Source of the DNA: Desulfuromonas sp.
Lineage (GTDB): Bacteria > Desulfobacterota > Desulfuromonadia > Desulfuromonadales > BM501
Assembly: GCF_002868845.1 (NCBI RefSeq)
Contig: NZ_PKUB01000048.1
Coordinates: 11,489 to 46,822, forward strand
Length of the DNA: 35,334 nucleotides
Direction: 5' to 3'
Part shown: in pieces, positions 2,044 to 31,655 of the stretch
Numbering within the stretch: the stretch's first letter is position 1
How the letters are laid out: each line of letters opens with the position of its first letter
The notes under the pieces: model-generated
Seen by the model: the letters and a program-made list of their open reading frames with translations, nothing else
Databases searched by the model: none
Told to the model about the DNA's origin: nothing
Translations under genes and position numbers: made by a program

Positions 2044-4275
2044 TCAAAGGCCGAAGGTGGGGCCGCGCTCGCCGATCAGAACGAGCGGGCCCTCGGTCTG
2101 GTTGGCGATGGCCACGGGGATCTTGCCGATGCGCCGCTGGCGCCGGTCCGGGTGCTGCAGGCCGAGGATGGTCAGGTCGTACTCCCGGGCCTGGCTGCAG
2201 ACCTCGGCGACCACGTCCTCTGCCTCGACCACCAGTTTCTGGCAGTCGCGGTGGACCTCGTCCCGGGCCAGCAGGGTCACCTCCCGCTCGGCGATGCGGC
2301 GGGCGCGGCTGGAGGTGCCGGGGGGGACGGTGCGCATGTAGGTGATCTCCTCGGTGCCGGAGCGGCAGAGGGTGGCCAGCAGGCGGGCCCGCAGGGTGCT
2401 CTGATCGGCGTGGCCGCCCACCGGCACCAGGATGCGCTTGACGCTGGTCAGCTGCCAGCCGTAGGGGGCCCGCAGGACCACCACGTCGCAGTCGACCTGG
2501 GCCATGATCCGTTCGATTTTCTCCGCGCTCGCCTCGGTTTCGAAGCGCCGCAGGCCGAGGAGCAGGCTGGCGCAGCGGTGTTCCCGGGCGACCCGGCTGA
2601 TCTCCTCCCGCGGCCGGTCGGCCACCGTGGTCAGCACCTCGGGGGCGAAATCGCTCTCCAGCGAGGTGCTGAGGATCTCCCCCAGCACCGACTGAAAATC
2701 GGCCAGGGTCCGGCCGCTGGCCAGGGCCTCGGGGCTGACCACCGACAGCATCAGGGCCCGCCCGCCCCCCGGGGGAGCGAGGGCGTTGGCCACCGCCATC
2801 AGGCCCGGGGCGCTGCCCGGGTTGGCCACAGGCACCAGCACCAGCGGGCTGCGCCCGCGCAGGCGGGTCAGGTGGGGGTCCAGCCCTTCGGCGGCGGCGT
2901 CGACCACCCGGGCGCGGCGGGCGAAGAGGGCCCAGTAGAGCAGGCCGCCGATGGCCAGCCAGCTGCCGGTGATCAGGCCCGCCTCCGGCACCGCTACCGC
3001 CTGGAAGAGGCCGAGCAGGGCGCAGGCGATGCCGCCGATGACCGGCACCAGGGGCAGTCGGGCCAGACCCCGGCGGGGCTGGCGCTCCTTGCCGCGGCGC
3101 CGGGCCAGGATGGCGGTCCAGTGGACCAGGGCGAAGGTCACGAGAAAGATCAGGCTGGCTGCGGCGCCGGCGGCCGCAACGTCGCTGAGGAGCAACACCA
3201 GAAAGAGCATCGGCGCCCCGCTGGCCAGCACCGCCGCCACCGGGGTGCCGCGCCCTTCGTGGACAGCGCCGAACTGGTGGGGCAGGGTCCGGTCCCGGGC
3301 CATGGTCAGGGCCATGCGCGAGGCGGCGAAGAGGTTGGCGTAGAGGGCCGAGAGCATGGCCAGCACGGCGCCGCCGATGACCAGCCAGAACCCGGCGGGC
3401 CCCAGGTAGTTCTGCGCCGCCAGGGCGAGCAGGCCGTCCGGGTTGGCGCGGCTGAATTCGACGATCGATATCCCCGGCGGTGCGCCCACCGTGGCCACCA
3501 CGAAGACCAGCGGCAGGTAGATCACCAGGGCCGCCCCCAGGGAGAGCAACATGGCGCGGGGGATGGTGCGCTCCGGCTGGCGGACCTCGCCGGCCACGGC
3601 GGCGATCAGGTCGAAGCCCTGCAGGGTGATGAAGGTGTAGCCCATGGCCTGCAGCACGCCGAGGCCGCCGCTGGGGAAAAAGGGGCTCAGGGCCGCCTCG
3701 ACCGTATCCTCCGGGCGCCCCCCCAGCGCCCAGAGCCCGCCCAGGATCAGAATGACAAAGAGGATCATCTTGCCGAAATTGACCCACTGCCGTCCCTCGC
3801 CGCTGCGGCGGCAGAGCAGGGCGGCATAGGCCGCAATCGGCAGGTGCGCCAAGAGCAGCATCGCCCCCCGGCCGCCGAACAGGTCGGAGATGTCGGCCAT
3901 CAGGGCGGGGAAGAGGCGGGTCAGGGCCAGCGAGGCGTAGGAGGCAAAACCGACGGCGTAGAGGGCCCCGGCCATGATCGAGGCGAACCATGCAATCCAG
4001 CCGATCATGAAGGCCTAGCGCACCGAGAGGACCTTTTTGGCAAAGGTGTAGGTGCCCCCCGACTCGGGGAAGGCCTTGGCCATTTCGGCGAAGCTCAGTG
4101 CGGTCAGCAGGGCGATGACGCCGTTCAGGGCGAAGGCCACGATCGCCGCCGGCCCGGCCGTGGCGAAGGCGACCCCGGCCAGGGCCAGGATGCCGCCGCC
4201 GACAATCGCTCCGATGCCGACCCCGGTCGCGCCCATCAGGCCGATGGTGCGCAGGTCTTTAGAGTTTGTCGTCAT
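2044..4275 (-). pseudogene. APC-superfamily amino acid permease with C-terminal USP-like domains, interrupted by an in-frame TAG
   Basis: Read through, this is a 743-residue protein. The N-terminal part (GLMGATGVGIGAIVGGGILALAG) is the first helix of APC amino-acid transporters, and about twelve hydrophobic segments follow. The last roughly 300 residues look like two universal-stress-protein-type domains (VLVPVANPGS..., RILVPVGG..., ending near LTILGLQHPD). Codon 87 is TAG (4015-4017): the protein reads ...AKKVLSVR, stop, AFMIGWIAWFA... in the same frame with no shift. Homologues from memory have Glu at this place, so GAG to TAG is the simplest change. The rest of the gene is open and shows no decay, so the lesion is recent, a sequencing error, or read through. 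An internal ATG (4006-4008) follows the stop but would lose the first two helices. No good ribosome binding site precedes the ATG at 4275. The gene could still be functional if the TAG is an error. Confidence 0.75.
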
Positions 4276-31210: not shown

Positions 31211-31330
31211 GCGGGCCCTCTCGCTGTGTCTCGGTGCGGCGGGTTCAAGGCGTCGTTAAAAGATAGCACAAGCCCGAAAGGGCGGGCCCGGTTTTTCCCT
31301 TCCCCGCCCCGAGTCTTTCGGTTCGGGAAT

Positions 31331-31531
31331 TCAGCCCTTCTTGTCGGGGCGATTTCCCTCACCGGGAATCAGGGCCAGAAAAAGCCCGATCACCGCTCCG
31401 TACAGAATCCCTGACCAGGGAGTCGAAAGGATGCCTCAGGTGCTGCCCGCGCACTGGCCCGCATAGCCGAGCAGACCGCCGGCGGCCCCTCCGATGGACA
31501 TGAGGATGGCAAACTTCATCACGTGTTTCAT
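31331..31531 (-). CDS. probable selenoprotein: 66-residue membrane protein with in-frame UGA (DUF6132-like)
   Basis: The ATG at 31531 has GGAGG at 31536-31540. The frame reads MKHVMKFAILMSIGGAAGGL, LGYAGQCAGST, then TGA at codon 32 (31436-31438), then continues GILSTPWSGILYGAVIGLFL and ALIPGEGNRPDKKG to a TGA at 31331. The part after the UGA is clearly coding: a second hydrophobic helix with YGAVIG, then a charged tail. The whole resembles a two-helix family recalled as DUF6132, with a GC-x-SGTC-PITSNP-YGA pattern. The second Cys of that pattern falls exactly at the UGA, so Sec would replace Cys and give a C-x4-U redox pair with Cys27. A SECIS-like hairpin follows (separate entry). A nonsense mutation is the alternative, but a UGA at a conserved Cys position with a fitting hairpin is unlikely by chance. 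Confidence 0.75.
31408..31438 (-). promoter_or_regulatory. SECIS-like element after the in-frame UGA
   Basis: On the minus strand, 14 bases after the TGA (31438-31436) comes the hairpin TCCCT-GGTC-AGGGA (31421-31408). The apical loop GGUC starts 19 bases after the UGA. The Escherichia coli fdhF SECIS has the same GGUC loop about 18 bases after its UGA. The G at the loop start is the feature recognised by SelB. The lower stem is only partly paired by eye. Confidence 0.65.
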
Positions 31532-31655
31532 GGGGCCTCCATAAAGGTGTCAGGCATTTTCCCATCCCCGCCGGGAATCTGTCAAGGCGGCGCCGATGAT
31601 GTTTTCGGTTCCGGAGAGCGCGCGGGCGGGGGCTGCTGGACTCTTTTTGAGGGCC

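Follow-up and report, generated by a model that had tools for sequence, protein, structure and literature searches.

The window (the whole stretch of DNA analysed, 35,334 nucleotides) carries on its minus strand a short gene, 31531..31331, of 66 codons plus a TGA stop that lies within these coordinates. Its ATG begins at 31531, and its frame is interrupted at codon 32 by an in-frame UGA (31436..31438), predicted here to encode selenocysteine (Sec). With this TGA translated as U, the 66-residue product is MKHVMKFAILMSIGGAAGGLLGYAGQCAGST-U-GILSTPWSGILYGAVIGLFLALIPGEGNRPDKKG, followed by the stop. A preliminary description, made from the sequence alone, had claimed a gene split by a UGA at codon 32 with a product of 66 amino acids; this held, the strand, which had been left unnamed, being the minus strand. 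The plus-strand reading of 31331..31531 was rejected as non-coding. A GGAGG resembling a ribosome-binding site (31536..31540, minus strand) lies 4 nt before the ATG. On the same strand, consensus scans gave a promoter-like TTGACA-18-GAAAAT (31556..31585; 1 against 0.1 in shuffles, without proof of function) and a terminator-like hairpin 3' of the gene (31269..31290), and since these two elements flank it, the gene looks like a one-gene unit. Its neighbours in the window are genes for a dynamin-like GTPase and an ABC-F type ABC protein. No Rfam model matched the window at gathering scores, the plasmid collection searched held no match, and the alignment of related loci around it contained no sufficiently conserved stretch.

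The read-through product matches the Pfam family DUF6132 (PF19628; E=7e-15) with 54.9 bits against a gathering cut-off of 23.2, covering positions 1-56 of the 60-position profile on both sides of the UGA, and meets the criterion for membership (a score above gathering over most of the profile). Estimated from homologues, dN/dS is ~0.18 before the UGA and ~0.21 after it; both sides are conserved, and the latter value places the part after the UGA under purifying selection. Comparison thus shows the gene, and the preliminary description was right both in recalling DUF6132 and in claiming that coding character continues past the UGA. No NCBIfam model matches the window protein, and among 27 members only chance-level matches were obtained; the single match among the solved structures searched with the window protein was likewise at chance level. 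In an AlphaFold model, residues 2-28 and 38-54 form helices that flank the motif; the model is weak (pLDDT 65), too weak for a fold search.

The UGA column and the Sec machinery

A search with the Pfam model in 244 species of the window's class returned 39 DUF6132 matches (~16% of the sampled species), every one of which carries exactly one TGA, in the same column; in Dehalococcoidia, the Pfam search found TGA in 5/5 DUF6132 genes. When 395 genomes of the phylum were searched at the protein level, 28 had matches, with TGA at the same place in all but two, both of them weak, unrelated matches, and the homologues with TGA reach down to ~33% identity. We also scanned ~85,000 named genomes with a DNA pattern permitting TGA, TGC or TGT at the column. 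Most matches were due to chance and were sorted out by translation, and the true members carried only TGA (Desulfuromusa, Pelovirga, Geobacter MAGs, Dehalococcoidia, Victivallales, Pontiellaceae MAGs and others). Because the pattern also required the hairpin, it is biased towards Sec forms, a bias from which the Pfam searches are free. A locus filed as Cloacimonadota (L087) was not taken to add a phylum, since the protein it encodes barely differs from that of a Geobacter MAG (L125) and selA is missing from its genome.

Bacteroidia homologues have Cys at the column, within CxSGTC, at every locus read out except that of G504. The class of the Pontiellaceae genome holds both forms, with UGA in G449, G451 and G838, all of which have selA, and Cys in many others; G451 has one copy of each form. 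Both the conservation of the UGA and the exchange of Cys and Sec are shown by these comparisons, and the criterion that the in-frame UGA of a selenoprotein be conserved as UGA or Cys in homologues is met. The preliminary description had placed the UGA at the second Cys of a C-x-S-G-T-C motif, which the Bacteroidia forms bear out, and the homologue search for Cys or UGA at this column, which it had proposed as a check, was favourable.

One alternative is that the UGA is an ordinary stop, the gene being a pseudogene, a sequencing error or the gene of a 31-residue peptide. In its favour, gene callers would end there, and the Bacteroidia homologue in G504 has TGA at the column in a genome without selA. 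Against it, the sequence following the UGA shows purifying selection and can be aligned with Cys homologues, the TGA is fixed throughout the class members, and a conserved hairpin follows. The recurrence of this TGA in all 39 class homologues and in other lineages excludes a sequencing error, which had been named as a possible refutation. We regard an ordinary stop as very unlikely. In G504 itself (L182, near 2931-3062), the TGA stands exactly at the second Cys column, in GCASGT-TGA-AITSKP; it is likely to be a nonsense change or an error, and an undetected Sec system remains possible.

The Sec machinery of the window's genome (99.84% complete) is shown: tRNA-Sec (75.7 bits), selB, selA and selD all lie on contig C56, which meets the selenoprotein criterion that all four be present and answers favourably the earlier proposal to look for selA, selB, selC and selD. 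This selD has an in-frame UGA of its own (SSG-U-AAKM; L147 near 3443, minus strand) and would therefore be called too short; a yedF-like gene, named from its sequence only, adjoins tRNA-Sec. Among the genomes tested, selA was present in 13/17 with the UGA form vs 2/26 with the Cys form (p=5e-6), and selB was found in 14/14 with the UGA form. The four UGA-form records without selA are G504 and three MAGs, perhaps incomplete or misbinned (G445, G452 and G635). At one locus (L076, the same place as L223; 784-2452, minus strand), the gene immediately downstream of Sec-DUF6132, in the same orientation, is selA, a linkage seen in no other examined locus.

The SECIS-like hairpin and two UGA subtypes

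A 5-bp SECIS-like hairpin, UCCCU-GGUC-AGGGA, occupies 31408..31421 on the minus strand, its GGUC loop beginning 19 nt after the UGA, as had been described earlier. The support for it is comparative (covariation, codon bias and a synonymous recoding control) and does not come from single-sequence folding, which was not significant for the window hairpin (z ~+0.4). The hairpin alone reaches -5.3 kcal/mol, a 30-nt stretch -7.7 and 48 nt -12.5, no better than shuffles; the published criterion is a minimum free energy of -7.5 kcal/mol or lower, with a spacing of 16-37 nt (PMC13188914), and against that source the window hairpin offers a GGUC loop, 5 bp and a spacing of 19.

Across 41 distinct sequences, the main-subtype hairpin reads CC[C/A/U/G]U-GGUC-A[G/U]GG plus outer pairs, with 95.1% of cells paired, three pairs showing two-sided changes (23 cells) and a covariation score matched by 0/500 shuffles; when the partner is slid by 1-3 columns, pairing falls to 32-64%. 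The pattern that supplied 16 of the 41 fixed part of the stem but placed no constraint on the outer pairs 17-32 and 18-31, where most of the compensatory changes are found. In genes not chosen by the pattern, the loop Ser codon is TCA in 25 and TCG in 1 of 26, TCA making up 2.5% of Ser codons in the genes of the window, and the Gly codon is GGG in 20/20. Synonymous recoding kept the GGUC hairpin in 1.5/26 on average vs 21 observed, and the hairpin test was passed by 37/44 PWS-type UGA genes vs 7/44 Cys homologues. Covariation of the SECIS-like element is thus shown. Among 20 further class members obtained without the pattern, three (L241, L242 and L245) have a natural GGAC loop in place of GGUC, an intact stem and Thr instead of the Ser of PWS, and these loops provide a test case for loop recognition by SelB.

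A second rival reading is that the UGA is read through with an amino acid other than Sec, or that read-through is a regulatory leak. This cannot be excluded without protein data. Against it, Cys is the exchange partner at the column, the Sec machinery co-occurs, and the hairpin is of bacterial SECIS type at the published 16-37 nt spacing (PMC13188914); we consider it very unlikely. Decoding of UGA32 as Sec is, in our judgement, very likely, with Sec insertion itself inferred and no protein or ribosome-profiling evidence at hand.

A second UGA subtype has the motif IGST-U-xLTCNPY without PWS and a longer hairpin ~30 nt after the UGA, with covariation support in 12 sequences; this hairpin is less certain because several members lack a good G-loop. 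Of the 57 distinct UGA genes in the comparison, every one has a single Cys within reach; its position is -5 or -6 in all 44 of the PWS type and +4 in the 13 of the CNPY type (one of the 44, L096, is cut at the locus edge in the alignment, and its Cys is visible in a separate readout). In the window gene this is Cys27 (31451..31453, minus strand), the presumed resolving partner of Sec32; the C-x4-U motif claimed by the preliminary description therefore held for the window gene, and is refined by the +4 partner of the second subtype. A Cys form from the Pontiellaceae class (L215, GGSCPLTCNP) mirrors the CNPY type. These Cys positions point to a likely Sec-Cys redox pair in which the partner has changed its place between the subtypes. 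A later-found UGA copy from the Dehalococcoidia class (L206, G716:C109) has the PWS hairpin and no Cys near Sec, and its genome also holds a second, ordinary UGA-form copy.

Proposed mechanism, possible role and known systems

We propose a model in which the gene encodes a 66-residue, two-helix DUF6132 membrane selenoprotein. SelB with Sec-tRNA-Sec would read UGA32 as selenocysteine, directed by the downstream hairpin CCCU-GGUC-AGGG, and Sec32 would lie five residues from Cys27, in the short loop that joins two Gly-rich membrane helices. The two would most likely form a reversible selenosulfide, which is inferred, and in Cys-form relatives a Cys-Cys pair would occupy the same place. The motif had been placed at the membrane surface by the preliminary description, and charge counts refine this: Lys/Arg counts are higher in both tails than in the loop in 51/60 proteins, favouring tails inside and the motif loop on the outer side. 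This topology is inferred from charge counts only, and sits uneasily with the leaderless, presumably cytoplasmic thioredoxins that adjoin some copies.

The function is likewise inferred, from neighbouring genes. Thioredoxin, rhodanese or ETHE1-like genes (the latter metallo-beta-lactamase plus rhodanese) occur near Cys forms at 27/30 Bacteroidia and 14/19 other loci vs 0/59 background loci, the last drawn from mixed phyla and only a rough control. A thioredoxin gene lies directly upstream of the UGA forms L023, L027, L029, L034 and L124, and that of L124 is also next to a gene for a rhodanese-TusA-DsrE2 protein. On this basis the protein may act in thiol/selenol redox at the membrane surface, partnered by thioredoxin or rhodanese, its substrates being disulfides or sulfane sulfur (persulfides). 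Membrane thiol/sulfane-sulfur redox is the best single role we can offer, and it is unproven, with the balance slightly against it. The Bacteroidia neighbourhoods also hold, with the rhodaneses and thioredoxin, a small membrane protein rich in Cys, ~85 residues long and unmatched in Pfam (L168, 1226-1477, minus strand, with comparable genes at nine further Bacteroidia loci).

A selenoprotein with another role, such as peroxide or quinone reduction, metal handling or part of a transporter, is as plausible as not. The Desulfuromonadales neighbourhoods examined show no linkage to sulfur, thioredoxin or rhodanese genes, so the function proposed above is borrowed from distant relatives; one Dehalococcoidia copy has an MsrB-like gene, named from sequence only, 350 nt downstream, and a Sec/Cys pair suits many redox roles. 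Against such a role, thioredoxin, rhodanese and ETHE1-like genes recur beside Cys forms in two classes, and thioredoxin adjoins some UGA forms. Returning to the sulfur reading, a bolder version, which we hold only tentatively, is a widespread, overlooked membrane selenoprotein that would relay electrons or sulfane sulfur between partners of the thioredoxin and rhodanese types at the membrane, in two subtypes that differ in where the SECIS lies and between which the resolving Cys moved from -5 to +4.

In a 2026 review, 119 families of prokaryotic selenoproteins are tabulated (PMC13188914). DUF6132/PF19628 is absent from that table, and the criterion of a match to a family listed there (NCBIfam, TIGR or Pfam domain) is not met. 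The literature searched contained no text on DUF6132/PF19628 as a selenoprotein, a lone match for DUF6132 being about DUF6 transporters, consistent with the preliminary description, which did not recall it as one; supplementary lists and NCBI annotation were outside the scope of this search, and an earlier sighting there is possible. The deep-Sep study included Desulfuromonas soudanensis WTL among its scans and reported 13 known and no new selenoproteins for it (PMC12013277); a genome of the same order, which we take to be that strain, has a UGA-form DUF6132 gene at 2125323-2125475. Sec-DUF6132 is very probably a selenoprotein family, present in many bacteria, and one that gene annotation and published selenoprotein lists appear to have overlooked, its UGA codon being taken for a stop. 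It would add an atypical family, of only 66 residues with two membrane helices and without a thioredoxin fold, connect an unknown Pfam family with sulfur and thioredoxin genes, and offer a named gene with which to approach the question of why anaerobic bacteria that metabolise metals and sulfur spend selenium at the membrane. PWS is also a clean natural example of a protein motif shaped by a SECIS hairpin.

Among known systems, SelB/SECIS selenoproteins of the type of Escherichia coli formate dehydrogenase H share with the window gene a UGA followed by a GGUC-loop hairpin at 18-19 nt and the Sec machinery; the UGA-to-loop spacing of fdhF used here is general background. The window protein differs from that type in being tiny and membrane-embedded, with a short stem and neither a thioredoxin fold nor a molybdenum enzyme. 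The YeeE/YedE thiosulfate transporter selenoprotein (PF04143) is also a membrane protein with a sulfur link and Sec in a Gly/Ser motif, GUxSG (PMC13188914), but it is a large transporter, and the window protein has no PF04143 match. Also close are the Cys-form DUF6132 proteins of Bacteroidia (CxSGTC). The family function is unknown in the Cys and UGA forms alike, and both share a curated family model, two Gly-rich helices and paired redox residues five apart, whereas in the UGA form the second Cys is replaced by UGA/Sec and the motif, CxGST-U and PWS(G/W), is shaped by the hairpin.
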